NCBI GenBank assembly: GCA_021779665.1
Contig: JAJYAG010000003.1
Span: forward strand, 1-64,000
Source of the DNA: Bacteroidota bacterium
GTDB lineage: Bacteria > Bacteroidota > Bacteroidia > Bacteroidales > JAAUTT01
Direction: 5' to 3'
Length of the DNA: 64,000 nt
Position 1 is the stretch's first letter; every line of letters starts with the position of its first letter. Shown in pieces: positions 19,635 to 61,108 of this stretch. Under the pieces are notes generated by a model. That model was not told where the DNA came from, did not search any database, and saw nothing but the letters and a program-made list of their open reading frames with translations. The translations under genes were made by a program, and so were the position numbers.

Positions 19635-19648
19635 TTATTTAGTTAGCA

Positions 19649-20218
19649 TTATTTTGTTATTTCTTTTATCCAATTGGGAACCGGACTTTCGGGCAAAGGA
19701 ACTTTTGCATTTGGCACACTCGACAAGCTGTTTACTCTGCCATGTGGTGTTTCGCGATGACATTCCCAGCAAAGCCTGTCCGACTGATGGACCTTTTGGC
19801 TTACCGAAACGGCTTTTGTGTCGAACAGGTGATTGTGGCAGCGGATACAGTTATTCTGTACCACTTCTATTCCGGCTTCTTTGATAAAAATTACCTGAGG
19901 TTCGTTACGCAATGTAAATATGGTAGCATGCCGCAATCCATCTTTTGCCTTAAAGTAATAATGGCTGAAAAAATTATTATGCGGAACGTGACAGTCATTA
20001 CAATTGGCAACTTCGCGGTGTGAGCTGTGATTCCAGGTAGCAAATTGCGAAGTCATAACGTGGCAGTTAACGCACGTCTTAGGGTTATCCGAAAGATAAG
20101 AATAGGCATTGGAAACATAAAAAATGTAAATGCCCGATCCTGTAAAGATTCCAAGTGCAATTATCACCGGAACCCGCCAGAACGGTGGCGGAGTTAGCTT
20201 TCTTATCAAATTTTTCAT
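19649..20218 (-). CDS. nrfH: NapC/NirT-type tetraheme quinol dehydrogenase of the nitrite reductase
   Basis: A single N-terminal membrane helix (about residues 15-36) anchors a periplasmic domain with four heme sites: CVNCH 49-53, CNDCH 73-77, CIRCH 124-128 and CWECH 150-154. It takes electrons from menaquinol and passes them to NrfA, forming a membrane NrfHA complex. The 189-residue length is slightly above that of typical NrfH. It lies 14 bases before nrfA and 5 bases after the DUF1905 gene, so it belongs to the operon. Confidence 0.95.
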   Translation of the reverse strand: MKNLIRKLTPPPFWRVPVIIALGIFTGSGIYIFYVSNAYSYLSDNPKTCVNCHVMTSQFATWNHSSHREVANCNDCHVPHNNFFSHYYFKAKDGLRHATIFTLRNEPQVIFIKEAGIEVVQNNCIRCHNHLFDTKAVSVSQKVHQSDRLCWECHRETPHGRVNSLSSVPNAKVPLPESPVPNWIKEITK

Positions 20219-27090: not shown

Positions 27091-29634
27091 ATGGTTCCTT
27101 CATTGAAAAAGCTTTTTGCGCTTATCGTCTTTGCAATAACTCAGGTTTACGTGCTTTGCGCTGCCGATGAAACTTCATTCAGGAGATATGATGAAAGCTT
27201 TTTTGTTATTTCCAACTTTTCCGGAGTTGATGCGGTAACCAGCGAGGATAAAAAAATAAGCGAATTGCTCCAGTCGGGAGTCGATGGTTTCCGTTTTCTG
27301 ATCGATTGGGACAAGTCAAACAATACCCTTATATTAAAAGAATCAAATGGTAATTCGATTTTGCTGATTGATGCTCTTACAACAATCAAAAACTATCTGG
27401 AGAGTCAGCCTGATAAGATACTTACGCTTTTTCTCGATTTTAATGTTAACATCAACGAATTAAACGATGTATTCGATAAATCAGGGCTCTTACCTTATTT
27501 GTACAGGCACGAAGAAGAAGCAGGCTGGCCGGCAATTTCAACTCTGGTTCAATCCGAAAAAAGATTGGTAGTATTTTCGATGCAGGAACACCGGTCGAGC
27601 CCCGACTGGGTGCATTATATCTGGAATTACGCGGTGGAACCTTATTTTTCGCTGATGGATGCTCCCGATTTTATTGGAGAGTATTTAAAAGGCGATCCCA
27701 AAAACGAACTGCTGATATATAACGAGTTTAATGTTCAGGGGCCGGGAGACAGGAACAAGCCTAAAAAGCTTGATCTTAATTTTAATCCATATTTGCTTGA
27801 GCATATAAAAAACGTTTGGTCAAAAACTGGCAAAGCGCCAAACTTTATTATGCTGGATAAGTTCGATCCCAATATAAGCAGGGTAATTTACTTCCTGAAA
27901 ATGTTTAAGACACTTAAGGGAACAGTAACTTTTAATACCCAGTTGCTCGATTATGTTAGCTGGGAAGGCCGTAATAGTCTAACAAGCGGAAAATTCAGTT
28001 TCCCAATAGGACCTGGTGATAATGTAACTTTAACACCACGCAGTCCGGGATACCGGTTCAAGCCAGAGTCGGTTGCTTTTGGCGAATTAAATACCAGCCG
28101 GGAACAACATTTTATTGCTTCGCCTCTGGATATAAACGAGGACCTGGAGGCATTTTACCCATTTGATAACAATATTAACGACATCAGTGGTAAAGGATTA
28201 AATGGCAATCCTATCGGAGTTGTTTTTCAGAAAGATAGCATACGTGGAACGGTTGCATTTTTTAATAACAAAAGTCACGCTGTGCTTTCAAAGTCGGAGG
28301 ATTTTAAAGTTCGTGACCACGATTTTACAGTAGCAGCCTGGGTTAAAATTGAAAAGTTTCTTCCCGGGAAAACAGATTATTGTATTTTGGGAACACCCAC
28401 AAATTCCTACCAGGAAGGGATTCATCTGGTTATCAGAAACCGGAAGCCTTACTTCGGATTCTACAGCAACGACCTGGAAGGGAACATGTTGTTCGACGAG
28501 AACAGGTGGTACCATGTTGTTTGGCGCTATACAAAACAAACAGGCGAGCAAGCCATTTATGTGAACGGTAAACTCGATTGTCAATCGTGGGGGCATCCCA
28601 GTTATAAGGGCAAGGAGAAATTGTTCATTGGCGTTGCAGGGTTCAGTTGGGAGTCAAATATGTACGGTAGCATCGATAACCTGATTGTTTGGAGCAGACC
28701 CCTTGGAAATGAAGAAATATGGGGTTTAAGCAAGAATATTGTGGAGGTGCTGCCCGTAAATAGTTTACTTTTCCGGTATTATTATCTGTTAATTGCACTT
28801 GGAGCAATCCTTATTGCGATATTACTTTATATTTTTCTCAGGAGACGATTGAATAAGAACAGAGAGCAGAAAATTTTCATTCCACGCAAAATAGAAGTAG
28901 ACCAGCAAGCTCAGAAAAGGAACTTTATCCGGTTGTTTGGCGATTTTATTATAATTGATAAAAATGGCGAGGATATCACATCAAGTTTTACACCTAAGCT
29001 GAAGCAGCTTTTCCTTCTTATCCTGGTTAATTCGCAACAGAATAAAAAGGGAATTACAACAAAAGAGCTTACCGACATTGTCTGGCCAAACCATTCCTAC
29101 CAGAATGCAAAAAACAGTCGCGGAGTCACAATCCGGAAGCTTCGTCTTTTGCTGGAAGTGATGGATAAGATTGAAATAGTTTTCCATGTGGATACCTGGT
29201 CGATGGAATTCTCGGGGAATGTTTACTGCGATTATGTAGAATGTTTGAAGCTGTTAGAGTTTGGCGATACCAATGATCCTGCATTTTATAAAGAGTTTTA
29301 CCGGATTGTTAAAAAAGGGGAAATATTTAAGGGTGAATCGCACGATTGGCTCGACGATTATAAAGGGCATATTGCTAATAATGTTGTCGATATTCTTTAT
29401 AAATACATACAAAAGCTGGATCAGAACACCGATCCTGACTTAATTCTAAAGCTCGCCGACAGGATATTGCTCGCTGACCCGGTAAACGAAGAAGCGCTTT
29501 CTTATAAATTAAAAGCGCTCATTAAACAGAATAACTATAAGAACGCAAAGTTCGCCTACGACAAATTCACCTCAAACTACCTTGAAATGTATGGAGAGAA
29601 ATTTGGGACGGCATTTGAAAAACTTATCGAATAA
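27091..29634 (+). CDS. Membrane-spanning one-component regulator: PLC-like and LamG sensor with SARP-type (winged-helix plus BTAD) output
   Basis: Four parts are seen in one 847-residue protein. Residues 1-24 are a signal peptide. Residues about 30-330 resemble a PI-specific phospholipase C-like TIM barrel (GVDGFRFLIDW, ILTLFLDFN, NFIMLDKFD), but the catalytic histidines are not evident, so it may only bind ligand. Residues 355-555 form a LamG/concanavalin-like lectin fold (LEAFYPFDNNINDISGKGLNG, FTVAAWVKI, WYHVVWRYT). A membrane helix spans about 562-585. The cytoplasmic part has an OmpR/PhoB-like winged helix (612-705) and a tetratricopeptide-like BTAD domain (715-847), as in SARP regulators. 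It should sense an external glycan or lipid head group and regulate transcription directly. The targets are unknown. Confidence 0.78.
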   Translation: MVPSLKKLFALIVFAITQVYVLCAADETSFRRYDESFFVISNFSGVDAVTSEDKKISELLQSGVDGFRFLIDWDKSNNTLILKESNGNSILLIDALTTIKNYLESQPDKILTLFLDFNVNINELNDVFDKSGLLPYLYRHEEEAGWPAISTLVQSEKRLVVFSMQEHRSSPDWVHYIWNYAVEPYFSLMDAPDFIGEYLKGDPKNELLIYNEFNVQGPGDRNKPKKLDLNFNPYLLEHIKNVWSKTGKAPNFIMLDKFDPNISRVIYFLKMFKTLKGTVTFNTQLLDYVSWEGRNSLTSGKFSFPIGPGDNVTLTPRSPGYRFKPESVAFGELNTSREQHFIASPLDINEDLEAFYPFDNNINDISGKGLNGNPIGVVFQKDSIRGTVAFFNNKSHAVLSKSEDFKVRDHDFTVAAWVKIEKFLPGKTDYCILGTPTNSYQEGIHLVIRNRKPYFGFYSNDLEGNMLFDENRWYHVVWRYTKQTGEQAIYVNGKLDCQSWGHPSYKGKEKLFIGVAGFSWESNMYGSIDNLIVWSRPLGNEEIWGLSKNIVEVLPVNSLLFRYYYLLIALGAILIAILLYIFLRRRLNKNREQKIFIPRKIEVDQQAQKRNFIRLFGDFIIIDKNGEDITSSFTPKLKQLFLLILVNSQQNKKGITTKELTDIVWPNHSYQNAKNSRGVTIRKLRLLLEVMDKIEIVFHVDTWSMEFSGNVYCDYVECLKLLEFGDTNDPAFYKEFYRIVKKGEIFKGESHDWLDDYKGHIANNVVDILYKYIQKLDQNTDPDLILKLADRILLADPVNEEALSYKLKALIKQNNYKNAKFAYDKFTSNYLEMYGEKFGTAFEKLIE

Positions 29635-31772: not shown

Positions 31773-31845
31773 CTCCGTTATAAACTTCAGATAAGGATTC
31801 ACTAATAGCCTGTATTTAGATTTGAATCGTATTTCAAAAATATTT

Positions 31846-33387
31846 ATGGGAAAACTACGCAGTCTTTTTCAAGGATTAAAGTCGGGTAAAAAAGCTTTCA
31901 TTGCATTTACTGTTTTAGGAGTAATAATCACCATTTTTATTTCAGCTTTAGGAGGGAAGGCAATCTCCTATACATCGAGTGATAAGTATTGCATGTCGTG
32001 CCATGTACACCCTCACGCTGAAAACAGTTGGAAACTTGGTGCACATCATAATAACAGAACCGGAGTTGTGGTTCACTGTTCCGAGTGTCACCTGCCTCCT
32101 AAAGGCCACGGCTATTTATATGCCAAAGCAAAACACGGGATGACCGATTTGTATGGATATTTATTCAAGGACACTTCAGAAATAAATTGGGAAAGCAAAC
32201 GCACAGTTGAAAAGGCTGATAAATTTGTTTATCAGGAATCGTGTATCAAATGCCACCAAAACCTGTTTCCTGCCACACTGTCGAAAGATGGCGATAACGC
32301 ACATCTTTATTTTCTTACAAGCAATCAGGGGCTGCGCTGTATTAACTGTCACCTGAATGTAGGCCATTTCGATCCAAAAGCAAAACACGAGCACAATACC
32401 AATTTTGGAGCGGATGTTGAACATACCGAAATATATACTGAAGCTGCCAAAGTTGATAAGTTTGAGAATTTCACCGAAAAGATTCCAGGCACAGGGGTTG
32501 CTTTCGATATGGTAGCAGTTCGCGGTGGTACATTTAAAATGGGTAGCCCTAAGGACGAACCCTTACGCGATGATGATGAAGGTCCTGTTCATCAGGTTAA
32601 AGTATCCGATTTCTGGATGGGTAAAATCGAGGTAACATGGGAGGAGTATCTCTCCTTCTTCAAAGCCACATCCTCACAGGGCAGAACTGAAGGAGAAGAA
32701 GTTAAAAATAAAAATGTGGATGCAATTACTGGTCCAACCCCCCCGTGGGGAGCTCCCGACCAGGGATGGGGTAAAGGTTCAAGGCCGGCCATCACCATGA
32801 GTTGGCATGCTGCAAGGGTATATTGCGAATGGTTGTCAAAGGTAACGGGCAAAAAATATCGTCTCCCAACTGAAGCGGAATGGGAATATGCCTCCAGGGG
32901 TGGTACCAGTTATCCTTACTTTTTCGATGGAAATCCCAAAAAATATTCTTCCAAAGGTTTCATGAAAAAAATCTTTGGTCCCGATACTTCGCAAATAGCA
33001 TCCAGAGTTATTTATAAGGAAAATAGTTACTCAAGAACTCAGGAACCTGAGATTGTGAAAGAAAATCCGTTTGGTTTAAAAAACATGTTGGGGAATGTTG
33101 CCGAGTTTTGTCTGGATTATTATTCGCCTGATGCTTATAACGCCCAAAAGGGTAAAATAGCTGTGGATCCAAGAGGTCCCAAGAAGGGAACGGAGCATGT
33201 GATAAGGGGCGGTTCGTTCATGAGTGATGCCAGAGATACCCGTTGTGCTGCACGCGATTTTACAAGAACCAAAGAATGGTTGGTTACCGATCCGCAAATG
33301 CCAAAGAGCATATGGTGGTATTCCGATTGTATCGACGTAGGATTTAGAGTTGTATGTGAAACAAAACCTGTTTTAGAGAAAAAATAA
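31846..33387 (+). CDS. Membrane tetraheme cytochrome c (NapC/NirT-like) fused to a SUMF1 domain
   Basis: The ATG at 31846 gives 513 residues; an in-frame TTG eight codons upstream is possible. After a membrane helix (about 17-40) come four heme sites: CMSCH 49-53, CSECH 78-82, CIKCH 133-137 and CINCH 165-169, a NapC/NrfH-like layout. Residues about 216-510 form a sulfatase-modifying-factor (formylglycine-generating enzyme) fold: DMVAVRGGTFKMGS, PAITMSWHAARVYCEWLS, LPTEAEWEYASRGG and GNVAEFCLDYY. In the C-terminal IRGGSF segment only one cysteine (Cys467) of the usual pair is seen, so formylglycine activity is doubtful. It opens a cluster with two sugar oxidoreductases and a ThuA protein, suggesting an electron-accepting role in the periplasm. 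Confidence 0.82.
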   Translation: MGKLRSLFQGLKSGKKAFIAFTVLGVIITIFISALGGKAISYTSSDKYCMSCHVHPHAENSWKLGAHHNNRTGVVVHCSECHLPPKGHGYLYAKAKHGMTDLYGYLFKDTSEINWESKRTVEKADKFVYQESCIKCHQNLFPATLSKDGDNAHLYFLTSNQGLRCINCHLNVGHFDPKAKHEHNTNFGADVEHTEIYTEAAKVDKFENFTEKIPGTGVAFDMVAVRGGTFKMGSPKDEPLRDDDEGPVHQVKVSDFWMGKIEVTWEEYLSFFKATSSQGRTEGEEVKNKNVDAITGPTPPWGAPDQGWGKGSRPAITMSWHAARVYCEWLSKVTGKKYRLPTEAEWEYASRGGTSYPYFFDGNPKKYSSKGFMKKIFGPDTSQIASRVIYKENSYSRTQEPEIVKENPFGLKNMLGNVAEFCLDYYSPDAYNAQKGKIAVDPRGPKKGTEHVIRGGSFMSDARDTRCAARDFTRTKEWLVTDPQMPKSIWWYSDCIDVGFRVVCETKPVLEKK

Positions 33388-33391
33388 TCAT

Positions 33392-34738
33392 ATGAGTTCA
33401 AAAAATATTGACCGCCGCAAGTTTTTAGAATCGACTGCTTTTGCAGGAATGGCAGGCCTGGCAGCCGGAGCTCTTTTAACCTCCTGTAAAAAAACTCCCG
33501 ACAATAAAGAATTGGGACTTCCCCCGATTTTAAACGGAGCCCCTAAAGGCCGCAAGTTAAGAGCTGGCCTGATAGGTGCCGGAAATCGCGGAACCGGGGC
33601 TGCCATTAACTTTCTGAGCTGCGGCCCCGACCTTGAAATTATTGCTTTAGCTGATGTTTTTCAGGATAAAGTAGATGGTTGCCGGCAGAGATTAGAAAAA
33701 TACAAAATGAACATCCCGGCAGAGAATTGTTTTGTTGGTTTCGACGGCTACAAAAAATTAATTGCACTGCAGGATGTTGATGTGGTTTTGCTGGCCACAC
33801 CACCTCAATTCAGGCCTGATCATTTTTTAGAAGCTGTTCAGAATAAAAAGCATGTCTTCATGGAAAAGCCGGTAGCTGTTGATCCTGTTGGGATCCGGTC
33901 GGTGATTGCTACTGCGAAAAAAGCCGAGGCACTGGGACTTTGTGTTGTAACCGGCACACAGCGTCGTCATCAGGAGGATTATATAGAAACCTACAAGCAG
34001 ATTGCAGGTGGCGCTATTGGTCAGATTGTTTCTGCAAAAGCTTACTGGAACCAGGCTCATGTGTGGTTCCGTACCCGCGAGGAAGGCTGGAGTGATATGG
34101 AATACATGATCCGTAACTGGAACAATTTCTGTTGGTTATGCGGTGATCATATTCTTGATACCCATGTTCATAATATCGACGTTATCAACTGGTTTATGGG
34201 TAAACACCCTGTAAGTGCAATTGGTTACGGTGGTCGCGTGCGACGTGTTACAGGTGATCAGTATGACTTTTTCAGTATTGATTTCGATTATGGTAACGGT
34301 GTTAGTTCTCACAGCATGTGCCGACAGATTGACAGTTGTGCAAATGGTACAGGCGAAATAATTATGGGAACAAAAGGATATACCAACTGCCGCAATACTG
34401 TCTGGAATCTGGATGGCAGCGTAAAGTGGAGCTTTGAATATCCTAAAGATCAGAACGGGAACCCGATGAATCAGATCAAAATTCCGCCCTATGTCCAGGA
34501 GCACATACATCTGGTTCATGCTATCCGAAAGAATGAATATGTTAACGAAGCGGAGCAAACAGCGCTATCTACGTTAACGGCAATTATGGGCAGAACTGCT
34601 GCATACACCGGTAAGCTTGTAACCTGGGACGAAATATTCAAATCGAATATGGATCTTGGACCCGAGAAAATCGAATTTGGACCAGTTAACATGCAGTTTG
34701 ATGTTCCTCTTCCGGGAACGCCAATCACAAACGTTTGA
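33392..34738 (+). CDS. Tat-exported lipoprotein Gfo/Idh/MocA-family oxidoreductase, first copy
   Basis: The N-terminus has a twin-arginine motif (DRRKFLES) and a lipobox (LLTS-C, Cys32), so the folded protein with its cofactor is probably exported and lipid-anchored. The Rossmann motif GAGNRG is at residues 62-67, the family EKP is at Glu158-Lys159-Pro160, and GDHILDTHVHNID at 251-263 holds the likely catalytic histidines. Relatives oxidise or reduce sugar carbons, often carbon 3, with tightly bound NAD(P). It starts 4 bases after the cytochrome-SUMF1 gene and is followed by a second family member, so all are probably one operon. Confidence 0.9.
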   Translation: MSSKNIDRRKFLESTAFAGMAGLAAGALLTSCKKTPDNKELGLPPILNGAPKGRKLRAGLIGAGNRGTGAAINFLSCGPDLEIIALADVFQDKVDGCRQRLEKYKMNIPAENCFVGFDGYKKLIALQDVDVVLLATPPQFRPDHFLEAVQNKKHVFMEKPVAVDPVGIRSVIATAKKAEALGLCVVTGTQRRHQEDYIETYKQIAGGAIGQIVSAKAYWNQAHVWFRTREEGWSDMEYMIRNWNNFCWLCGDHILDTHVHNIDVINWFMGKHPVSAIGYGGRVRRVTGDQYDFFSIDFDYGNGVSSHSMCRQIDSCANGTGEIIMGTKGYTNCRNTVWNLDGSVKWSFEYPKDQNGNPMNQIKIPPYVQEHIHLVHAIRKNEYVNEAEQTALSTLTAIMGRTAAYTGKLVTWDEIFKSNMDLGPEKIEFGPVNMQFDVPLPGTPITNV

Positions 34739-34766
34739 CATTTACACAACTACTAAATAATTAACT

Positions 34767-36077
34767 ATGGTAAACAAGTCATCACGAAGGGAGTTTCTCA
34801 GGAAAGCAGCTGCCACAACAGCCGGGGCGTTTATTCTGCCCCAGATTGTGCCTGCATCGGCACTTGGATTAAATGGAAAAACGCCACCCAGCGACAGGAT
34901 AGTTATGGCTGGTATTGGTGTGGGTTCTCAGGGTAAGAGCAACATGCGGAGCTTTTTGAATAAAAAGGAAATTCAGTTTGTTGCGGTTTGCGACGTCGAT
35001 AAAAACAACGGTCTTTCTGCAAAGGACCTTGTTGATAAGCAATACGCAAATTCTGACTGCCGTCAGTATTCTGATTTCCGGGAGATTCTGGAGAAGGAAA
35101 AACTCGATGCAGTTTGCCTCGCATTGCCTGATCACTGGCATGCTATCATTTCAGTAAATTGTGCTAACAAAAAGCTCGATATATATGGTGAAAAACCTTT
35201 GGCCAGAAGTATCCGCGAGAGCCAGGCTATAGTTAATGCTGTTAAAAAGAATAATATTATCTGGCAAACAGGTAGTTGGCAACGTTCAGTCGAAAATTTC
35301 CGCATTGGTGCTGAACTTGTTATGAACGGCCGTATTGGAAAGGTTAATTATGTGGAGGTAGGACTTCCGGATGGTAAGAGATCTATTGGTACTCCGCCTG
35401 TTATGCCTGTTCCTGAGGGCCTCGATTGGGAATTCTGGTTAGGACCGGCTTTAAAAGTTCCCTACAGGGGAGTATGCCATTGGAACTGGCGCTGGATTCA
35501 GGATTATTCAGGAGGGCAGTTAACCGACTGGGCGGGTCATCATATCGACATTGCTCATTGGGGACTTGGATTCGACAGAACAGGTCCGGTAAGTGTTGAA
35601 GGTACAGGAATATATCCAAGAGAAGGTATTTATGATGTGGCTGTTGAATACGACTTTTTATGTACTTACGCCAATGGTGTAAAAATGCGGGTAGCGAATG
35701 CATCGCGTTTGAAACATGGCATGGGAACTGTATGGCATGGCGAAAATGGTTGGATTCAGGTAAACAGAGGTAATGTTTTGGAAGCTTCCGATCCGTCTAT
35801 CCTTAAAAATATAGTTAAGCCCGGTGAAAAACTTCTTTATAAAAGTACCGATCATCAGCAGAACTTCATCGACTGTATCCGCAGTCGTAAGGAAACCATC
35901 ACTCCCGCTGAAATAGCGCATCGTTCCATCTCGGTAGGATTGCTAGGTGAAATAGCAATGCTGACAAATACAAAAATACAATGGGATCCTGAAAAGGAAG
36001 AAATAATTGACAACCATTATGCAAGCCGGCTTTTAAACAGGCCTTACCGTGAACCTTGGACTTTACCAGTAATTTAA
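34767..36077 (+). CDS. Tat-exported Gfo/Idh/MocA-family oxidoreductase, second copy
   Basis: A twin-arginine signal (SSRREFLRKAA) without a lipobox opens the protein. The Rossmann motif GVGSQG is at residues 51-56, EKP at 142-144, and the Bacteroidetes-type C-terminal domain has LDWEFWLGPA, YRGVCHWNWRWIQDYSGGQLTDWAGHHIDIAHW and PREGIYDVAVEYDF. It is only distantly related to the first copy, which suggests different substrates or successive steps, for example oxidation of a glycoside and of the released sugar. It lies 28 bases after the first copy and 12 bases before the ThuA gene. Confidence 0.9.
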   Translation: MVNKSSRREFLRKAAATTAGAFILPQIVPASALGLNGKTPPSDRIVMAGIGVGSQGKSNMRSFLNKKEIQFVAVCDVDKNNGLSAKDLVDKQYANSDCRQYSDFREILEKEKLDAVCLALPDHWHAIISVNCANKKLDIYGEKPLARSIRESQAIVNAVKKNNIIWQTGSWQRSVENFRIGAELVMNGRIGKVNYVEVGLPDGKRSIGTPPVMPVPEGLDWEFWLGPALKVPYRGVCHWNWRWIQDYSGGQLTDWAGHHIDIAHWGLGFDRTGPVSVEGTGIYPREGIYDVAVEYDFLCTYANGVKMRVANASRLKHGMGTVWHGENGWIQVNRGNVLEASDPSILKNIVKPGEKLLYKSTDHQQNFIDCIRSRKETITPAEIAHRSISVGLLGEIAMLTNTKIQWDPEKEEIIDNHYASRLLNRPYREPWTLPVI

Positions 36078-36089
36078 ACTCAGGAAACC

Positions 36090-37301
36090 ATGAAGAAAGC
36101 AATTATATTTTTACTGATAACCGGAGTATTTTCTGCTTTTTACGGGTGTAAAAAGCAACATGCCTATAGCGCATTAATAGTAACCGGACAAAATAATCAT
36201 AACTGGAAAGCAAGTTCCAGAATTCTGAAACAACTACTGGATCAAACTGGTTTATTCTCTACTGATATTATTGAAACTCCGGCTGCAGGAAAGGATATGA
36301 CTTCCTTTGCTCCCGACTTTCAGAAGTACGATGTGGTAGTGATGGATTATACAGGCGATTCCTGGTCGGACAAGACAAAGAGCAGTTTTGAAGAATATAT
36401 CAAAGCTGGTGGCGGACTTGTTATATACCATGCTGCCGACAATGCATTCCCGGAATGGAAAGCTTACAACGAAATGATTGGTCTTGGCGGCTGGGGTAAA
36501 AGAAACGAAAAGGACGGACCTTATATTTATATGAAAAAGGATTCTTTAATAACAGATACAACTGCCGGACCCGGTGGGTCGCATGGCAAAAGACATGAGT
36601 TTGTTGTTAAAGTAAGAAACGAAGAACATCCGATTACCAAAGGTTTACCTAAGAAATGGCTGCATGCTGAGGATGAACTTTACAGCCAGTTAAGAGGGCC
36701 GGGCAAAAACATGGAAATTCTTGCAACTGCTTATGCCGATACAGCTCAGAAAGGTACCGGACGCGATGAACTGGTTTTGTTTACGGTAACCTACGGCAAA
36801 GGACGAATATTCCACACTGTATTGGGACATGCAGGTAACGATACAACAGCTTTTCCGGCTATGGAATGCCAGGGGTTCATTACCACCTTTCAAAGAGGTG
36901 CCGAGTGGGCTGCCAGTGGCGTAGTTACTCAGACTGTGCCGGAAGGGTTTCCTAATGCTGCAGGAGTTGTTCAACTCGAAAATTATAAGCCTTTAACCCT
37001 TGAGCAATTGATGCGGAATGTTGAAAACTACGATATTGCCAAGAGTCGTAAATATTTCTACGATCTGCAGAGCCGAATACGCTCATCCGATAGAACTCCG
37101 GCAACACTTTTGTCATTTGAGAAGTTAATTGTAAAATCACTCAAAAAGAAGAGTGTTTCAGCTGATGCAAAAAGGCTGCTCATCAAAGAATTGAGCTGGA
37201 TGGGCTCTGATTATAGTATTTCAGTTTTAAAAGATATGCAAAAGGAAACTGAACTGAAGGATGAAGCTCAGTTTGCTTTGGCAAGGTTAGAGTCAAAGTA
37301 G
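36090..37301 (+). CDS. ThuA-domain lipoprotein with C-terminal helical repeats
   Basis: The lipobox FYG-C (Cys20) makes it a lipoprotein. Residues about 26-290 form a class-I-glutamine-amidotransferase-like ThuA domain: LIVTGQNNHNWKASS, YDVVVMDYTGDSW, GGLVIYHAADNAFPEW, WLHAEDELYSQLRGP and GRIFHTVLGHAGND. ThuA-type proteins take part in catabolism of 3-keto sugars made by ThuB-like Gfo/Idh/MocA enzymes (trehalose and related disaccharides). The last 110 residues look like HEAT-type helices. Its position directly after two such oxidoreductases supports a shared extracytoplasmic pathway. It is the last gene of this cluster before the glycosyltransferases. Confidence 0.85.
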   Translation: MKKAIIFLLITGVFSAFYGCKKQHAYSALIVTGQNNHNWKASSRILKQLLDQTGLFSTDIIETPAAGKDMTSFAPDFQKYDVVVMDYTGDSWSDKTKSSFEEYIKAGGGLVIYHAADNAFPEWKAYNEMIGLGGWGKRNEKDGPYIYMKKDSLITDTTAGPGGSHGKRHEFVVKVRNEEHPITKGLPKKWLHAEDELYSQLRGPGKNMEILATAYADTAQKGTGRDELVLFTVTYGKGRIFHTVLGHAGNDTTAFPAMECQGFITTFQRGAEWAASGVVTQTVPEGFPNAAGVVQLENYKPLTLEQLMRNVENYDIAKSRKYFYDLQSRIRSSDRTPATLLSFEKLIVKSLKKKSVSADAKRLLIKELSWMGSDYSISVLKDMQKETELKDEAQFALARLESK

Positions 37302-37328: not shown

Positions 37329-38270
37329 ATGCTATCTCTGGTTATTCCAATTTTTAACGAAGAATGCCTGATTGAAGAATTGGTAAATCGTTCAGTGGCG
37401 GCACTGGAGCGGTTTACCTCTGATTATGAAATAATTCTGGTTGATGATGGAAGTACAGATTCCAGTTTAGCAATACTCCTCGATTTTCAAAAGGCTAATC
37501 CCAAACTGAAAATTCTGAGCCTTTCCAGAACTTTACGACATCAGGCGGCTTTTACCGCTGGTCTCGACCATGCAACAGGCGATATTATTGCCATGATGGA
37601 TGGAGATCTTCAGGATCCTCCCGAACTCTTCGAAGCCATGTACAAAAAAATTACCGAAGAAGGGTTCGATGTCGTTAGCGGTAAACGAAACCGAAGGATT
37701 GGCAAGGGAAGCCGGATGTTTTATACTTTTTTATTTCACCTGCTGTTTAAAAAGCTCGCCGGAATTAAAAACATGGAGAATACTGGTAATTTTTCCATGA
37801 TGAAACGCAATGCCATGGATGCCCTCCTGAAAATGAATGAGAAAGTACGGTATCTTCCGGGCTTGCGTTCTTTTATTGGATTTCGTCAGGGATTTATTGA
37901 ATATGTGCGTGAAGACCGGAAGATTGGCGATACAAAAATGAATCTGAATAAGCTGTTTCTCTTAGGAGCTGATGCCATATTTTCTTTCTCAAAGTTCCCC
38001 ATCAGGATGTGTATGGTTTTGGGGATAATGGGAACGATCATTTTTATGATTGCCGGAATTTACGTAATCATAGCACGTATTCTGGGGCTTGCAGTTCTTG
38101 GCTGGTCATCAACCATGCTGAGTATATATTTTTTGGGTTCCATTCAGCTGATATTCATGGGAATCATTGGGGAATATGTATTCAGAATTTATAAGGAGTC
38201 GCAAAACCGACCTATATATTTTGTAGGTAAATTCTATAAAGCTGAAAACGAGGACAAAGAGGCAAAATGA
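37329..38270 (+). CDS. Family 2 glycosyltransferase, polyprenyl-phosphate sugar type
   Basis: A GT-A domain covers residues 1-220 with LVIPIFNEE, VDDGSTD (38-44), the metal-binding MDGDLQDPPE (90-99) and RKIGDTKMNL. Two membrane helices follow (about 228-250 and 258-285). This layout is that of DPM1/GtrB/ArnC-like enzymes that move a sugar from a nucleotide donor to undecaprenyl phosphate on the cytoplasmic face. The gene ends in an ATGA overlap with a GT39-type transferase, which would use the lipid-linked sugar on the outer face. The pair therefore forms a plausible two-step glycosylation module. Confidence 0.9.
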   Translation: MLSLVIPIFNEECLIEELVNRSVAALERFTSDYEIILVDDGSTDSSLAILLDFQKANPKLKILSLSRTLRHQAAFTAGLDHATGDIIAMMDGDLQDPPELFEAMYKKITEEGFDVVSGKRNRRIGKGSRMFYTFLFHLLFKKLAGIKNMENTGNFSMMKRNAMDALLKMNEKVRYLPGLRSFIGFRQGFIEYVREDRKIGDTKMNLNKLFLLGADAIFSFSKFPIRMCMVLGIMGTIIFMIAGIYVIIARILGLAVLGWSSTMLSIYFLGSIQLIFMGIIGEYVFRIYKESQNRPIYFVGKFYKAENEDKEAK

Positions 38271-40324
38271 CCCCAAAAGTGTTTAAATATATCTTCTTTT
38301 TGCTAGCCTTTATAATTTTGGCAGGGATGCTTATTACAAGCAAAGATGCCGGAATTTCGGGTGATGAGGAGGTGCATTATAAACAATCCGAAATGGTGTA
38401 TCAGTATTTTGCCACCCAGGGGGAGGATAAATCGTCCCTGAGTACACCGGTTACACACCTGAAATACTACGGACAGGCCTACGATAACCTTGTAACAATT
38501 CTGATTCATTGGTTTTCTGTTGAAGATATCTACACGTTTCGCCACTTTATGAGTTCTGTTGCTGGTTGGCTTGCCATATTTATAACCGGCTTGCTGGCAG
38601 TTTCACTGGGCGGATATTCAGCAGGAGTTCTGGGCTTAGTTCTTTTTGCAGTTTCTCCAACTTTTTTGGGGCATGCGCATAACAACCTGAAGGACGTTCC
38701 TTTTGCTCTCGCGTATGTTGCCACCATCTTTTTTATGGTGAGATTATTCTTTTTTGACAAGACATCAAAAACAAGCTTATTGTTGCTGGTTTTTAGCATT
38801 GCTCTTGCCATAGGTATCCGACCGGGTGGACTTTTGGTTGTAGCTTATCTGTGGTTTTTTGTTACCCTTGAAACGGCTTATAGAAATCGGAGTACACACA
38901 GAGTCGACTGGACAGCTCTTAGAAAGAGATTCTTACTTATAACCGGGATATCTGTTTCTGGATATTTACTTGGGTTGATTCTCTGGCCTTATGCGTTGCA
39001 AAACCCTGTTTCCAATCCCTGGAAATCGTATCAGGTAATGACTCACTTTCCTACTACCATAAGGCAAATATTTGAGGGGAACTTAATATGGTCCGACCTG
39101 CTCCCATGGTATTATCTGCCAAAGTCGATGCTTATTACAATTCCCATTATTGTTTGGGTGGGAGTTGTACTGTTTATCAGTTTTGGTTGGAAATTAATCA
39201 AGGAAATGCCTGTTTTATATGTGTTTCTGGTATTTGCTCTAATATTTCCTCCTGTTTTTGCTATTATTAAAAAATCGAATCTTTACGGAAGCTGGCGGCA
39301 TTTTCTGTTTATTTATCCACTTTTAGTGGTATTGGCGGCGCTTGGATTTAATTACGTGTTGTTGCTTTTCAAGAGTAAGGTGATAAAAGTTGCAGCCGTT
39401 TTTATAATCATTTTACTGGCTTTTCACCCGTTCCGGTTTATGGTTAAAAATCACCCTTATTATTATTTGTATTACAATCAAATAGCCGGAGGACTTAAAA
39501 AAGCCTACGGAAATTACGAGACCGACTATTATTATCATTCGGTTCGCGAAGCTACTGAATGGTTGGTTCAGCATCTGGAAGAAAATAATATCAAATCGGC
39601 TGTGATTGGTTCAAATTTCATGATTTCGTGGCATTTACGCGATCATCAAGAATTTAAGCCTGTATTTTTTTCTTGGGATAAGCGCAGCCGGGCCGATTGG
39701 GATTATGCTATTGTAGCCAACAGCTATATTTTACCCTATCAGTTGCGAAATAACATCTGGCCGCCTCAAAATGCAATTCATAACATTTCCGTTGAAGGAG
39801 TACCTGTATGTACTGTTTTAAAGAGAGAAACAAAATCGGATCTGGAAGGAATTAATGCATTTCAGGCAGGAGAGAATGCTGCTGCTATCGAAAAATTAAG
39901 CGCTACTGCTAAAGCTGATAGCACCAATGAAACAATTTATTACTTTCTGGGACAGGCATATGCAAAATCAGGTAAAAGAGCTGCTGCCGACTCAGCATAT
40001 AAGCTTAGCCTGAAATGGCATCCTCAGTACGAAGTGTCGTTGTTTGAACTGGGAAAAAGTGCGGAAGCCAAAGGAGATATTGAGGGTGCCATAAGTTACT
40101 ATGATAAATTGATTGAGGCCAATCCCAAGTTTCTCAGGGCATACATTTTAAGAGCTAAATTTTTTCCGGATACCGATCGTGAAAAAGCAAGGAAACTCTT
40201 AAGGTATTGCCTGTCAATTAACTCTCGTTATGTGCCGGCAATTAATGCCTTAGCCGATACATACCGTGATACAGAGCCTTCGGTGGCGGAGAAGTATTAT
40301 AACCTTGCTAAATCGATTAAATGA
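38267..40324 (+). CDS. GT39-type (ArnT/PMT-like) membrane glycosyltransferase with C-terminal TPR domain
   Basis: About eleven hydrophobic segments fill residues 8-415, with the acidic first periplasmic loop near residues 25-35 (GISGDEEVHYKQ) typical of GT39/GT83 polyprenol-dependent transferases. A soluble part follows, and residues about 530-685 are tetratricopeptide repeats (YFLGQAYAKSGKRAAADSAY, LFELGKSAEAKGDIEGAISY). The enzyme should move a sugar from a polyprenyl-phosphate donor onto an external acceptor; the TPR domain may bring the target. Its ATG overlaps the stop of the GT2 gene. The acceptor, protein or glycan, cannot be told. Confidence 0.82.
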   Translation: MTPKVFKYIFFLLAFIILAGMLITSKDAGISGDEEVHYKQSEMVYQYFATQGEDKSSLSTPVTHLKYYGQAYDNLVTILIHWFSVEDIYTFRHFMSSVAGWLAIFITGLLAVSLGGYSAGVLGLVLFAVSPTFLGHAHNNLKDVPFALAYVATIFFMVRLFFFDKTSKTSLLLLVFSIALAIGIRPGGLLVVAYLWFFVTLETAYRNRSTHRVDWTALRKRFLLITGISVSGYLLGLILWPYALQNPVSNPWKSYQVMTHFPTTIRQIFEGNLIWSDLLPWYYLPKSMLITIPIIVWVGVVLFISFGWKLIKEMPVLYVFLVFALIFPPVFAIIKKSNLYGSWRHFLFIYPLLVVLAALGFNYVLLLFKSKVIKVAAVFIIILLAFHPFRFMVKNHPYYYLYYNQIAGGLKKAYGNYETDYYYHSVREATEWLVQHLEENNIKSAVIGSNFMISWHLRDHQEFKPVFFSWDKRSRADWDYAIVANSYILPYQLRNNIWPPQNAIHNISVEGVPVCTVLKRETKSDLEGINAFQAGENAAAIEKLSATAKADSTNETIYYFLGQAYAKSGKRAAADSAYKLSLKWHPQYEVSLFELGKSAEAKGDIEGAISYYDKLIEANPKFLRAYILRAKFFPDTDREKARKLLRYCLSINSRYVPAINALADTYRDTEPSVAEKYYNLAKSIK

Positions 40325-45202: not shown

Positions 45203-48200
45203 ATGAAAATATACATGAGATACATACTACTGCTATTCATCTTTTTTTCCCCGGCAATCTCCCTGGTGGCCCAAAAATCGGTTATTCGTTTCAAACATTA
45301 TACTACCGATGAAGGATTATCGCAAAACATGGTCGATTGTATTCTCAAAGATTCGCATGGTTTTATGTGGTTCGGCACATGGAACGGGCTTAATCGTTTC
45401 GATGGATATTCCTTTACTGTTTTCAAACAGAACTCACAGGACCCCAACAGCATTTCCAATAACTTTATCTATGCCATATGTGAAGATAAATTTGGAAACA
45501 TTTGGGTGGGTACCAATAATGGCCTGAATGTTTTTATCTATGCCGAGAATCGGTTTATTCGATATTATTACGGCAAGGAGCACCCCGGTATTTCGTCGCC
45601 CACTGTTAATGCTCTTGTTTGCGATGCAAATGGAAGCATATGGGCAGGTACCAACGGCGGTTTAGACAAAATAGAGATTGAAGGCAGGAGTGGGCGTATT
45701 AAAAGTATCAAAAATTACAAGGCAGGGAATAGCCCTGACCAGCTAAGTTCCGGTGTTGTTCAGGCCATATCGGAAGATCGGCAGGGTAACCTTTGGATTG
45801 GAACAGATAACGGATTTAACTGGTTAAAAAAGGACGGGTCAATCACTCAATTCAGAAACGATCCGGCAAATATCAATAGTCTGAGCGATAATAACATCAA
45901 ATCGGTTTATGTTGATAAGAATGGTAATGTTTGGGCTGGCACAAGTTTCGGACTTAATTTGTTGGATGAAGAAGGTAAACTTATCCGGCGATATTATCAT
46001 AACCCCGCTGATCCTACATCAATTGTCCACAATACAACCATGAATATTGCGGAAGACCTGAATGGCAGGCTCATTTTTGGTACATTGGGTGGTATCAGCA
46101 TTTACAAAGCCGGCACGAATAATTTTATAAACTATTCCTACAGAATCAACGACATTTATGGTTTAAACAATGAATTTGTTAACTGTTTGCTTGCAGATAA
46201 GGAAGGTAATATCTGGGTTGGAACTGAAAAAGGAGGAATCAACATTTTTAACATCTATCAGAAACCATTCGAGTTCTTCGAAAACGAACCCGGAAACGCA
46301 GGTTCTTTAAGTCACAACACCATTAACTCCATATTGGAGGATCAGGATTACATCTGGATTGGCACTGCGGGTGGTGGATTAAACAAATATGACAAAAAAG
46401 CAGGCCGATTTTTTAATTACAGAAACAATTCGCGGGTTGCTTCATCGTTGAGCAGCGATTTTGTGACATCTCTTTTTAAAGATAAACAAGCAAGACTTTG
46501 GATAGGCACCTGGGGTGGAGGCTTAAATCTCATTCAAGGTGCCGGAGTGAGAAACTTTCGTTTTATCATCCGGCCTTTAGCCGGCCAGGGCAATGGCGTA
46601 AATACGTATGATTTCATTTCATGCATTCTCGATAATGGCGACGGAAAATTCTGGATTGGCACGTTAGGAGGGTTGATACTTTTTGATCCCGTGTCCTTTG
46701 AATACGAGCACCTGGTTCCTGCAAATCCCAATATGCCGATTACCCAGGTGGGATGCCTTCAGTATGACAACTCCGGAAATTTATGGGCAGGTACCATTAA
46801 AGGGCTGTACCGAATTTTCAAAAACAGCGGTGGGGAAGTTTCTGCAAAAGGATGTATGGCCGAATTCTACCATAACATTCCCAGGAATTCGAATTCCATC
46901 AGTGGCGATTATGTAATCTCGATTCATAAGGATAAGAAGGGCACTATGTGGTTCGGAACATACGGGAACGGACTTAACCATTTTATTGAAGGTAAACCGG
47001 CGAAGACTCCAGGAACTTTTGTTCACTATACCGAGCAGGATGGCTTATGCGATAATGTTGTTTATGCAATTCTGGAAGATGAAAAGGATAACTTGTGGTT
47101 AAGTACCGACAATGGATTATCGAAATTCAACACCAGGGATAAAAGATTCCGGAACTACTATAAAACTGATGGTTTGCAAAGTAACCAGTTCTACTGGTCG
47201 GCCAGTTATAAAAACAAGGACGGGAAAATGTACTTTGGAGGAATGAAAGGCATAAATGCCTTCTATCCCGACAGCATTCACGATATTAAGCTGCCCGCAC
47301 GGACCATGATCACCGACTTCAAAATATACAACCAATCGGTTGAGGTGGGCAAAAAGTACAGCGGCCGCGTTGTTCTGGAGAAATCAATTTCAGAGACAAA
47401 AGAAATTAAGCTTTCCTATAAATCGAACGAATTCTCGTTTGAATTTTCTGCCTTACAGTATTTTCAACCCGAAAATGTAAGTTATGCCTATAAACTGCAA
47501 GGGTTCGATCAGCAATGGACCAACGTATCCTCATCGCGCAGGTTTGCCATTTATACCAATATAACCCGGGGTTCGTATGTATTTATGGTTAAAGCTGTTG
47601 ATAATGAAGGTCAGGCCATTCAGGAGCCATTTGAAATGCGGATTACCATTATCCCGCCATTTTGGTCCACCTGGTGGTTTATACTTATTATTGCCGCTCT
47701 AATTATCTCAGGAGCAATTTCATACTTCCGCTACAGGGTTTATGCTTTAAAGCGACAAACCCGCAAGTTGGAAAAGCTTGTAAGCCAGCGTACCGAAAAA
47801 ATAGAACAACAAAAAGAAGAGCTTGTTACTCAGGCCGAACAGTTATTGGAAACGAACCAGCAACTGGAGAAAAAGAAAGAGTTGATCGAAGGTCAGAAAG
47901 AACAGCTGGAAAAGCAAAACCTGGAGATCTCCCAGCAACGCGACAAGCTTATAGAGTTAAACCGGAAGGTTCAGGTTGCCAACCAGCAACAGCTTAATTT
48001 CTTCACACATATTTCCCATGAGTTCCGCACTCCTTTAACACTCATCACCTCGCCCGTTGAACAGCTTTTAAGGGAAATCGCCGCTGATGGCAGTGTAAAA
48101 TCAAAATTGAACATGGTTTACAAAAATGCCCAACGGATGCTCCATTTGATAAATCAACTAATGGATATCAGGAAAGTTGAAACAGGCAAAACAGAGCTAA

Positions 48201-49675
48201 AGGCATCAAAGGACAACTTGGTGAAATTTGTCGAAGGTATTTCTGCATCCTTTAATTCACTGGCCGCACAGCGGAATATCAAGTATAACCTGATAATGAA
48301 CAGGAAAACTCCCGATATTTATTTTGATCACGAAATTGTTGAGAATATCCTTTATAACCTGCTCTCCAACGCTTTTAAATACACTGGCGAAAACGGCGGC
48401 ATTTCCGTAATTATTGAAACGTCGGATGGCAAACCGTCGGGAAAAGACGATATTCCGATCGTAGACAAGCATTTCTACAAGCAATACAATATAAATGAAT
48501 ATCTCAAAATTGAGGTTCGCGATACAGGGATAGGTATTGCACAGGAACAGGTCCGCGATATTTTCAGACGTTTTTACCGCATTCATTCCCATTTGAGTAC
48601 CCGGACAACCGGAACAGGAATCGGACTGTATCTTACCCGCGAGTTAATCAAAGCGCACAAAGGTCTTCTCTATGTAAATAGCAAACCAGGCGCGGGAACT
48701 TCAATAAAGCTGATGCTGCCAGTTGGATCTGCGCACCTTTCCCCCACTGAAATCGTGGACAAAACGGCACCGGAAATCTCTGCCGGTTCAGAACTGCAGA
48801 TAAAGTTACTGAATGAGCAACTGGCTGGTAATTTTAAAGAGAAAAAAAGCCACATGACTGAACCCTCAAGAGTTGTTCTGGATACTGAACCGTTTGAAAA
48901 GCCTTCGTCTGATAAGCAGTTAATTCTCATTATTGACGACGACACCGACCTCTGCTCTTATCTGGCAGATTCTCTCAAAACATCGTTCAGGGTGATAAAG
49001 GCCGAAAATGGAAAAGAAGGTTGGGCACTGGCCAATAGTCACTTTCCCGATGTGATTATCTCGGATGTAATGATGCCCGAAATGGATGGCCTTGAACTCT
49101 GTACCAGGCTGAAAACCGAGATCCAAACCTCGCACATTCCCGTAATTCTGTTAACAGCCCGTTCTGAGGCTGAGCATTATATTGAAGGCCTGGAAACCGG
49201 TGCCGACGATTATATAGCAAAACCTTTTAACGTTCGTATTATTGAAGCCAAAATAAAGAACCTGATCGAAAACCGTAAAAGACTCAAAGCCCTCTTTGCA
49301 AACAGTCTTATCCCTGTACCCCGCGAGGTTACAACAACCCGGTCCGACGAAATTTTTCTGCAACGTGCTATTAAGCTGGTAGAAGATAATATAAACGATG
49401 CCGGTTTCAGTGTTCAGGAAATGGCTTCGGAACTGTGTATAAGCCGAAGTTTATTGCACAAGAAACTTACAGCCATTGTCGACCAGTCGGCCGGCGATTT
49501 TATAACGGCCATAAAACTTAAAAAATCGGCTCTGCTTATGCACGAAGGCAATTCCAATATTTCGGAAGTTGCGTATGCCGTTGGTTTTAACGATCCAAAA
49601 TATTTCAGCCGCTGTTTCAAAAAGCATTTTGGCAAATCGCCCTCCGAGTATGTAAAGGACAATAGTCTAAATTAA
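45203..49675 (+). CDS. Hybrid two-component system sensor-regulator (HTCS)
   Basis: One 1490-residue chain joins all parts of a PUL regulator. After a signal peptide (1-23) come 14 repeats of the x-W-x-G-T-x-x-G-L type, two seven-bladed Reg_prop propellers (about 30-690), then a Y_Y_Y domain (about 730-810) and a membrane helix (about 820-845). A coiled coil leads to HisKA with His939 in SHEFRTPL, the ATPase domain (N box NLLSNAFKYT; G boxes DTGIGIA and GTGIGLYL), a receiver with phospho-accepting Asp1288 (ISDVMMPEMDG) and a C-terminal AraC-type HTH (about 1385-1488, ending FGKSPSEYV). It senses a released oligosaccharide in the periplasm and activates the adjacent arabinan genes. Confidence 0.95.
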   Translation: MKIYMRYILLLFIFFSPAISLVAQKSVIRFKHYTTDEGLSQNMVDCILKDSHGFMWFGTWNGLNRFDGYSFTVFKQNSQDPNSISNNFIYAICEDKFGNIWVGTNNGLNVFIYAENRFIRYYYGKEHPGISSPTVNALVCDANGSIWAGTNGGLDKIEIEGRSGRIKSIKNYKAGNSPDQLSSGVVQAISEDRQGNLWIGTDNGFNWLKKDGSITQFRNDPANINSLSDNNIKSVYVDKNGNVWAGTSFGLNLLDEEGKLIRRYYHNPADPTSIVHNTTMNIAEDLNGRLIFGTLGGISIYKAGTNNFINYSYRINDIYGLNNEFVNCLLADKEGNIWVGTEKGGINIFNIYQKPFEFFENEPGNAGSLSHNTINSILEDQDYIWIGTAGGGLNKYDKKAGRFFNYRNNSRVASSLSSDFVTSLFKDKQARLWIGTWGGGLNLIQGAGVRNFRFIIRPLAGQGNGVNTYDFISCILDNGDGKFWIGTLGGLILFDPVSFEYEHLVPANPNMPITQVGCLQYDNSGNLWAGTIKGLYRIFKNSGGEVSAKGCMAEFYHNIPRNSNSISGDYVISIHKDKKGTMWFGTYGNGLNHFIEGKPAKTPGTFVHYTEQDGLCDNVVYAILEDEKDNLWLSTDNGLSKFNTRDKRFRNYYKTDGLQSNQFYWSASYKNKDGKMYFGGMKGINAFYPDSIHDIKLPARTMITDFKIYNQSVEVGKKYSGRVVLEKSISETKEIKLSYKSNEFSFEFSALQYFQPENVSYAYKLQGFDQQWTNVSSSRRFAIYTNITRGSYVFMVKAVDNEGQAIQEPFEMRITIIPPFWSTWWFILIIAALIISGAISYFRYRVYALKRQTRKLEKLVSQRTEKIEQQKEELVTQAEQLLETNQQLEKKKELIEGQKEQLEKQNLEISQQRDKLIELNRKVQVANQQQLNFFTHISHEFRTPLTLITSPVEQLLREIAADGSVKSKLNMVYKNAQRMLHLINQLMDIRKVETGKTELKASKDNLVKFVEGISASFNSLAAQRNIKYNLIMNRKTPDIYFDHEIVENILYNLLSNAFKYTGENGGISVIIETSDGKPSGKDDIPIVDKHFYKQYNINEYLKIEVRDTGIGIAQEQVRDIFRRFYRIHSHLSTRTTGTGIGLYLTRELIKAHKGLLYVNSKPGAGTSIKLMLPVGSAHLSPTEIVDKTAPEISAGSELQIKLLNEQLAGNFKEKKSHMTEPSRVVLDTEPFEKPSSDKQLILIIDDDTDLCSYLADSLKTSFRVIKAENGKEGWALANSHFPDVIISDVMMPEMDGLELCTRLKTEIQTSHIPVILLTARSEAEHYIEGLETGADDYIAKPFNVRIIEAKIKNLIENRKRLKALFANSLIPVPREVTTTRSDEIFLQRAIKLVEDNINDAGFSVQEMASELCISRSLLHKKLTAIVDQSAGDFITAIKLKKSALLMHEGNSNISEVAYAVGFNDPKYFSRCFKKHFGKSPSEYVKDNSLN

Positions 49676-52027: not shown

Positions 52028-52073
52028 AACTCTCATCTTCATACACTAACTATTAATGAACAAATTAAAATTT

Positions 52074-52112
52074 ATGAAAACAACTAAACTGATGATTTAT
52101 GAAAACAAGTAA
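52074..52112 (+). other. Duplicated 5' end of the lipoprotein gene (12-codon upstream frame)
   Basis: ATGAAAACAACTAAACTGAT at 52074 is an imperfect copy of the true gene start 25 bases downstream (ATGAAAACAAGTAAATTAAT at 52099). The upstream copy reads 12 codons in another frame and stops at 52110-52112, just inside the gene. It looks like a short tandem duplication and may act as an overlapping leader. Confidence 0.6.
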
Positions 52113-53826: not shown

Positions 53827-53852
53827 TAGTACGATAAAAATATTAAATATGA

Positions 53853-53887
53853 AACCCGCATGTTTTGCGCAACACAGCATGTGGGTT
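53853..53887 (+). other. Hairpin between the lipoprotein gene and susC
   Basis: AACCCGCATG pairs with CATGTGGGTT (10 bp with one G-T pair) across a 15-base loop. No T run follows. Between a binding-protein gene and a highly expressed SusC gene it may act as a partial terminator or an mRNA-processing or stability element. Confidence 0.6.
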
Positions 53888-53920
53888 CCATCTGACCTTT
53901 AACATTAAAAATATAAACAG

Positions 53921-57130: not shown

Positions 57131-57153
57131 AATAATTTAAAAACAGAGTCAAT

Positions 57154-58908: not shown

Positions 58909-58980
58909 GAATCGTTCTTTTAAAAGCGGTTGTGCGAAAAGTTTTTTTTCATGAATCGCACGTTCTAAAATGAGTAATTT

Positions 58981-59013
58981 AAACCTTTCAGGTTTTTAAA
59001 ACCTGAAAGGTTT
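58981..59013. repeat. 33-nt perfect palindrome, copy 3
   Basis: It is identical in sequence to copy 2 at 18055-18087 (arms AAACCTTTCAGGTTTT and AAAACCTGAAAGGTTT around one T). It lies between the susD-like gene and the first GH43 gene, inside the arabinan locus. Confidence 0.9.
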
Positions 59014-59126
59014 CGATTATTAAGACAGCTTCTGTTTTCTAATTAATTTGTTAGTTTATCGGCACCAGGCTTTAGGATGTCAGCCAAAACCTGAGTAGGT
59101 AAGTTTTTTAATAAACCATTTTCGAC

Positions 59127-60788: not shown

Positions 60789-61108
60789 AAATCATACAGA
60801 TTAAAATCAACATGGCTTACTATATAACTAAAAGGCACATTTCTTTTGATTTAGCAAAAAAAGCTTCTGATCGATGCATGGCGAAGCCTAAAATACTAAT
60901 ACCTTGCTGACGGCGGTCCGTTCAAGGGAAGTCGACGAAGGAGACGGACCGCGTTTATTCCCTTCGGTCATGAGAACGCTATCGCTAAGTTCCGCCGTCA
61001 AAGATTTTTTTGGTGACTTTTTTGGTCACAAAAAAGTTACAAATGGCTGTATGAAAACCTAATGTTATCTACCGTAATGTTTGTTTTGATAAATACGATT
61101 AACTTATT
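60789..61108. other. 320-base intergenic region between the two GH43 genes
   Basis: No gene is recognised. Its central part is the GC-rich structured element described at 60908-61036, unlike the AT-rich gaps elsewhere. The rest is AT-rich without a clear promoter for the second GH43 gene. Confidence 0.5.
60908..61036. repeat. Structured GC-rich intergenic element with nested inverted repeats
   Basis: TGACGGCGG (60908-60916) and CCGCCGTCA (60992-61000) are perfect 9-bp inverted repeats closing a 75-base segment. Inside are CGGTCCGT with ACGGACCG (60914-60921 and 60944-60951) and AAGGGAA with TTCCCTT (60924-60930 and 60958-60964). It ends in a T-rich tail with GTGAC-N7-GTCAC and CTTTTTTGGTCACAAAAAAG. 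The nested pairs cannot all form at once, so alternative folds are possible. The form suggests a dispersed palindromic element or small RNA. Confidence 0.6.

Follow-up and report, generated by a model that had tools for sequence, protein, structure and literature searches.

The window analysed here, 64,000 nucleotides of contig JAJYAG010000003.1 from a Bacteroidota bacterium of the order Bacteroidales (assembly GCA_021779665.1, genome of 6.9 Mb), holds four adjacent plus-strand open reading frames separated by gaps of 4, 28 and 12 bases. The first encodes a membrane-anchored tetraheme cytochrome fused to a SUMF1 domain, and it is followed by two exported oxidoreductases of the Gfo/Idh/MocA family, GFO1 and GFO2, and by a ThuA-family lipoprotein. 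This layout, the four identities and the export of every product had been proposed in a sequence-only reading of the locus, and they are borne out by the Pfam assignments, the four heme motifs and the export signals. That reading also coupled the cytochrome to extracytoplasmic sugar oxidation. The coupling is partly supported and better grounded than sequence alone allowed, but for the pair of cytochrome-SUMF1 and GFO1, and probably by way of a flavin.

The fusion gene begins at 31822 (TTG, 521 residues) or 31846 (ATG, 513 residues) and ends at 33387. Its product consists of one N-terminal membrane helix (residues 14-43 in the AlphaFold2 (AF2) model), a tetraheme domain of the NapC/NrfH type (Pfam NapC/NirT, 91.6 bits against a cut-off of 24.1) and a C-terminal SUMF1 domain (Pfam FGE-sulfatase, 32506-33258, 155.5 bits against a cut-off of 23.3). 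The stretch from 31990 to 32352 contains four CxxCH heme motifs (residues 57, 86, 141 and 173), which recur in every complete homologue, and a K102...D109 pair. These two residues, seven apart, are invariant in the fused family and align with the KAIAGARD segment of NrfH (2j7a), whose Lys/Asp pair we take to belong to the quinol site; their conservation is consistent with a quinone contact. With the NrfH equivalog model TIGR03153 the protein scores 77.2 bits, under the cut-off of 134.2.

The SUMF1 domain adopts a fold closest to PvdO among solved structures (Z 28.9), with FGE structures at Z about 25, and the NCBIfam PvdO model ranks second at 95.8 bits, far under its cut-off of 500. Both copper-binding cysteines of FGE (LCHESYC in 6s07) are absent from the aligned region (GGSFMSDARDTRCAARD): the first corresponds to a gap, and the column of the second holds a residue other than cysteine. 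The domain is therefore not a sulfatase activator. A role as formylglycine generator is rejected for this family, sulfatase genes standing beside only three of its loci. Two elements are added to the fold. The loop D300-A-I-T-G-P-T306 (32719-32739) ends in Thr306 (codon 32737-32739) and is a candidate site for flavinylation by ApbE, and the signature D490-P-Q-x-P-K-S-x-W-W499 (33289-33318) recurs almost unchanged in fused and unfused members but is missing from generic SUMF1 proteins.

GFO1 (33392-34738) is a lipoprotein exported by twin-arginine translocation (Tat), with the signal RRKFL...LTSC, in which the arginine pair and the cysteine are invariant in 25 homologues. It is assigned to its family by Pfam over the cut-off. 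It has an NAD-binding Rossmann domain, the EKP lysine and a C-terminal alpha/beta domain; the motifs GAGNRG, EKP and GDHI...H..D...W are intact, and G62, G64, E158, K159, H260 and D263 are invariant in 36 homologues. The AF2 model (predicted local distance difference test, pLDDT, 90.4) is confident and matches YjhC, RgNanOx, the aldose-aldose oxidoreductase AAOR and GFOR, the first three being the nearest. Relatives of YjhC, RgNanOx and aldose-aldose oxidoreductase retain NAD(P) during turnover. GFO1 is closer to inositol dehydrogenases, and in the Pfam output, inspected for a GH109-type C-terminal domain, only the general GFO_IDH_MocA_C and C3 domains are reported.

GFO2 (34767-36077) carries the Tat signal SRREFLRK and is a distant relative of the glycoside 3-dehydrogenase BT2158; its best solved chain is 8tdf (E 1.2e-27), and it falls under the BT2158 equivalog cut-off of NF058561 (167.6 against 750 bits). 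The ThuA-family protein (36090-37301) has the lipobox FYGC, and its closest solved structure is 4e5v (E 1.5e-102). Both are lineage-specific accessories.

Conservation of the SUMF1-GFO1 pair

Of 149 genomes from the order to which the host belongs, 21 carry the fusion at full length. In a scan of genome contigs, whose counts are those of a sample, the carriers named among the matches listed are Sunxiuqinia, Tannerella and other metagenome-assembled genomes of Bacteroidales or Bacteroidia. Of 32 distinct copies of the fusion, 31 have GFO1 next to the cytochrome-SUMF1 gene, whereas GFO2 and ThuA accompany 8; apart from a diverged case, L055, these two genes belong to a single sublineage. The conserved unit is therefore the cytochrome-SUMF1 and GFO1 pair, and the four-gene set is rejected as a functional unit. 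Half of the refuting condition set by the sequence-only reading, homologues that regularly lack Gfo/Idh/MocA or ThuA neighbours, thus applies: GFO1 stays next to the fusion, but GFO2 and ThuA are usually absent. An exported AP_endonuc_2 TIM barrel lies near 16 of the 32 copies. A further contig of the host genome, C274, bears another such cytochrome-SUMF1/GFO1 pair, after which a TIM-barrel gene takes the place of GFO2 and ThuA. The sole fused copy without GFO1, L050, is found near SusC/SusD-like genes.

Outside Bacteroidales the SUMF1 family lacks the tetraheme domain; the nearest of these unfused relatives occur in Flavobacteriia, Sphingobacteriia, Chitinophagia, Planctomycetes and Verrucomicrobia, and a GFO1-type gene stands beside 46 of their 64 SUMF1 copies. 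Across 296 phylum-wide genomes, GFO1 is present in all 36 with the SUMF1 family and in 10 of the 260 others (Fisher 1.5e-37); in 8 of these 10 exceptions, GFO1 in fact adjoins a divergent SUMF1 that bears the same signature. In that sample, GFO1 is the next gene downstream, on the same strand, for 34 of 40 SUMF1 copies. A tie between cytochrome-SUMF1 and an exported Gfo enzyme is supported far beyond chance.

The tetraheme domain is one of two cytochrome types joined to this family. Five verrucomicrobial members carry one or two CxxCH motifs, and PSCyt1 cytochrome c domains are fused to SUMF1 in all three verrucomicrobial members scanned with Pfam. The family has thus acquired two independent cytochrome fusions, NapC/NirT in Bacteroidales and PSCyt1 in Verrucomicrobia. 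Since these cytochromes are unrelated, the fusions favour an electron-transfer role in which the SUMF1 domain would exchange electrons. The earlier coupling of the cytochrome to an exported Gfo enzyme gains from these fusions and from the adjacency of GFO1, and it is lost for the exact four-gene set.

Links to nrfHA or cydAB are too rare to consider, nrfHA being adjacent in one locus and cydAB in two. In L048, nrfHA lies close to the cytochrome-SUMF1/GFO1 pair. In L069, a Hemerythrin-LuxR type regulator (6943-7887, minus strand) is divergent from the cytochrome-SUMF1 gene and hints at oxygen or redox control.

ApbE and the candidate flavinylation loop

The FMN (flavin mononucleotide) transferase ApbE adjoins 26 of the 64 unfused SUMF1 copies and all eight divergent ones. 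It is found beside none of 39 generic SUMF1 loci and none of nine loci of GFO1 paralogues without SUMF1, and so it follows this SUMF1 family and not SUMF1 or GFO1 in general. In the phylum-wide sample, ApbE is present in 36/36 genomes with the SUMF1 family versus 156/260 others (p 8e-8). The possibility that ApbE tracks GFO1 is rejected on the nine paralogue loci, and flavinylation of GFO1 or of the TIM barrel on the lack of a conserved ApbE-like motif in either. One GFO1 locus, L187, has ApbE, and no SUMF1 was seen when looked for there. In L152 (6242-11713), genes for YceI, ApbE, a PSCyt1-DUF1549-DUF1553 protein and DUF1501 come after a flavobacterial SUMF1 member, and GFO1 is missing from the range covered; L153 looks similar. 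SUMF1 and ApbE may thus form a pair that serves other exported redox proteins as well.

The target motif of ApbE is D-[GAIQ]-[IALVF]-[ST]-G-A-[ST] (PMC10722498, PMC12052999). Just before the DQGWG stretch, all 32 fused members carry an extra loop of the form D-[AG]-[IVF]-x-G-[PA]-T, which is flexible in the AF2 model. The loop of the window, DAITGPT, departs from the ApbE motif at position -1 only, where it has proline, and fits at every other position. Exact matches occur in 4 of 70 members (DGFSGAT in L046, DAISGAT in L064, DAVSGAT in L077 and L078) and in 1 of 1275 other proteins of the same loci. This last protein resembles NqrC, to judge by its N-terminal sequence, and NqrC is an established target of ApbE. 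Unfused members mostly read D-A-[VI]-T-R-P-[ST].

Proposed electron route and its alternatives

The best explanation of the locus, put forward tentatively and at just short of an even chance, is a chain that runs from sugar oxidation by GFO1 through FMN on the SUMF1 domain and the tetraheme domain to menaquinone. Lipid-anchored, Tat-exported and with a retained NAD, GFO1 would oxidise a sugar hydroxyl, probably at C3 of a glycoside. The keto product would feed TIM-barrel or DUF1080 lyases or hydrolases and, in the window, GFO2 and ThuA. A 3-keto-glycoside is suggested as the product because AP_endonuc_2 TIM barrels occur in many loci and 3-keto-disaccharide hydrolase domains in L054 and, twice, in L155. 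The SUMF1 domain would act as the dedicated electron acceptor of GFO1, ApbE attaching FMN covalently to Thr306 in the family-specific loop. NADH gives up a hydride and does not readily pass single electrons to heme; hemes accept electrons one by one, and a flavin can mediate between these two modes. A flavin bridge, the likely component that the sequence-only scheme omitted, is proposed on this ground. The FMN would accept the hydride that NADH on GFO1 gives up and pass electrons singly to the fused NrfH-type tetraheme domain, which would reduce menaquinone. By standard potentials, the path from NADH over FMN and heme to menaquinone is downhill, and its reverse needs energy. Where relatives lack the tetraheme domain, PSCyt1 domains, other carriers or oxygen may take over the electrons of the reduced flavin.

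Several observations weigh against this chain. ApbE is adjacent to none of the 32 fused copies, and it is present in 135 of the 149 genomes of the order, including elsewhere in the genome of the window, so that its presence is uninformative within the order and the flavin step of the window rests on homology. In 28 of the 32 fused members, among them that of the window, the residue preceding the candidate threonine is proline instead of alanine. In the literature searched, neither proline at -1 (most fused members) nor arginine at -2 (most unfused members) has a precedent in an ApbE substrate. Three divergent SUMF1 loci with ApbE and GFO1 adjacent (L182, L184 and L186) have alanine in place of the loop aspartate (AAVARPS), a change reported to matter little in the ApbE motif (PMC10722498). 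The loop may instead be structural. The AF2 model describes a single protein without heme or flavin, with pLDDT mostly below 80 in the tetraheme domain and below 50 in the candidate loop; both are too uncertain for the flavin-heme geometry to be placed. NapC/NrfH cytochromes, furthermore, usually oxidise quinol, which is the opposite direction.

It is unlikely that the route operates without a covalent flavin, the cytochrome-SUMF1 protein carrying electrons to quinone from GFO1 or from an enediol keto-sugar product, with SUMF1 serving only for docking or substrate binding in the manner of a C-type lectin and ApbE acting on another protein. Binding proteins with the SUMF1/C-type-lectin fold do exist, the Treponema variable protein and PorK/GldK among them, and both the fused loci without neighbouring ApbE and the atypical proline agree with such a role. 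The two-electron/one-electron mismatch between NADH and heme, a matter of general chemistry, argues against it, as do the specific tracking of the SUMF1 family by ApbE and the match of the loop to the ApbE motif, exact in a few members.

A redox-neutral cycle, in which GFO1 and GFO2 oxidise, cleave and re-reduce glycosides and cytochrome-SUMF1 has a separate job under merely shared regulation, is quite improbable. It has precedents, since GH4 and GH109 enzymes work with tightly bound NAD and no net redox change, and a Gfo enzyme re-reduces 3-keto-glucose in Agrobacterium (PMC10628242). The distant relationship of GFO2 to BT2158 also points this way, and the GH4/GH109 cycles leave without support the premise of the sequence-only reading that exported NAD-bound enzymes need an electron sink. 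However, the SUMF1-GFO1 adjacency is too tight and, spanning several phyla, too old for shared regulation alone, and SUMF1 has been joined to cytochromes of two unrelated types.

The SUMF1 domain might itself be an oxidase or dehydrogenase acting on the GFO1 product, as PvdO acts on dihydropyoverdine; its acceptor would be oxygen in aerobes and, in anaerobes, the cytochrome fused to it. This is very unlikely: PvdO is the best structural match and its NCBIfam model ranks second, but a shared fold is uninformative on function, the domain offers no known catalytic residue to check, and ApbE is left unexplained. Reverse flow, in which menaquinol would send electrons by way of the hemes (and flavin) to a keto-sugar serving as periplasmic electron acceptor, has the slightest chance. 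By standard potentials menaquinol cannot reduce NAD+ without energy input, and the accompanying TIM-barrel and DUF1080 genes suit a pathway that forms and cleaves keto-sugars. In its favour, NrfH/NapC proteins normally run in that direction, and flavinylated urocanate and fumarate reductases draw electrons from the chain (PMC8238504).

Generalised beyond the window, the flavin-bridged chain would make this branch of the SUMF1/FGE fold a covalently flavinylated carrier that serves exported, NAD-dependent sugar dehydrogenases and connects to quinone through unrelated cytochromes across phyla, and hence an undescribed respiratory sugar oxidation. This is possible, with the balance tilted somewhat against it. 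It bears on the question of where the exported, NAD-bound Gfo/Idh/MocA enzymes found in Bacteroidota, Planctomycetes and Verrucomicrobia send their electrons, and it offers a testable answer in a residue (Thr306), a partner (GFO1) and, in relatives, a maturation enzyme (ApbE). If true, it would add a new carrier fold to protein flavinylation, account for a set of SUMF1 genes that annotation would label sulfatase activators, and connect glycan breakdown directly to respiration.

Surroundings of the locus and known systems

The operon extends past 37301 on the plus strand with a family 2 glycosyltransferase (GT2, 37329-38270) and a PMT_2-like membrane protein with tetratricopeptide repeats (38267-40324), an order repeated in several orthologous loci of the GFO2/ThuA sublineage. 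Upstream, 27091-29634 encodes an exported protein of 847 residues with LamG, a membrane helix and, by eye, a C-terminal resemblance to BTAD/OmpR-like DNA-binding domains. A LamG-protein gene also lies upstream of cytochrome-SUMF1 in L039, L040 and L046, and it may be a membrane-bound regulator of the operon. On the minus strand, 18132-20218 holds an nrfA/nrfH pair, which encodes an ammonia-forming nitrite reductase that might act as terminal reductase of the same menaquinone pool. An apparent arabinose/xylose polysaccharide utilisation locus occupies 50051-62104, where the translations read by eye as arabinofuranosidase-like, SusC/SusD-like and GH43-like, and a hybrid two-component regulator (45203-49675) precedes it.

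Among known systems, the ApbE-flavinylated extracytosolic proteins (NqrC, RnfG, NosR and UrdA; PMC8238504, PMC11334425) resemble the present one in being exported redox proteins, in the ApbE linkage of relatives, in a D-x-x-[ST]-G-x-T loop and in the frequent presence of multiheme cytochromes. They differ in that the putative carrier here is a SUMF1 domain, the donor an NAD-bound Gfo enzyme, and position -1 mostly proline. A SUMF1 or sulfatase-type domain is mentioned in neither PMC8238504 nor PMC11334425. No description of SUMF1 with cytochromes, Gfo enzymes or ApbE appears in the literature searched, a weak negative given that most subscription papers lie outside that search.

The lactose 3-dehydrogenase LacABC and the GlycDH-type oxidases (PMC9007349, PMC10628242) share with the proposed route an exported or membrane-linked sugar oxidation. 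They make 3-keto-glycosides, which are cleaved by DUF1080 or TIM-barrel enzymes (PMC9007349, PMC10628242). LacABC is a three-part membrane dehydrogenase and GlycDH a flavoenzyme, whereas the enzyme here is a Gfo/Idh/MocA protein with a SUMF1 partner. The BT2158 pathway of Bacteroides thetaiotaomicron likewise oxidises glycosides with a periplasmic Gfo/Idh/MocA enzyme, of which GFO2 is a distant relative. GFO2 nevertheless stays far under the equivalog cut-off, the conserved GFO1 is nearer to inositol dehydrogenases, and no cytochrome-SUMF1 partner of the BT2158 pathway is described in the literature searched.

The cytochrome domain agrees with NrfH of the NapC/NirT family in its one membrane anchor, four hemes and the K...D pair of the quinol site. 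Unlike NrfH, it is fused to SUMF1 and has no NrfA partner next door, the nrfHA pair of the window lying separately at 18132-20218. The SUMF1 domain shares its fold with FGE and PvdO (Z 25-29); it differs from FGE in the absence of both copper cysteines, and from both proteins in the extra D..G.T loop and the DPQxPKSxWW insertion.

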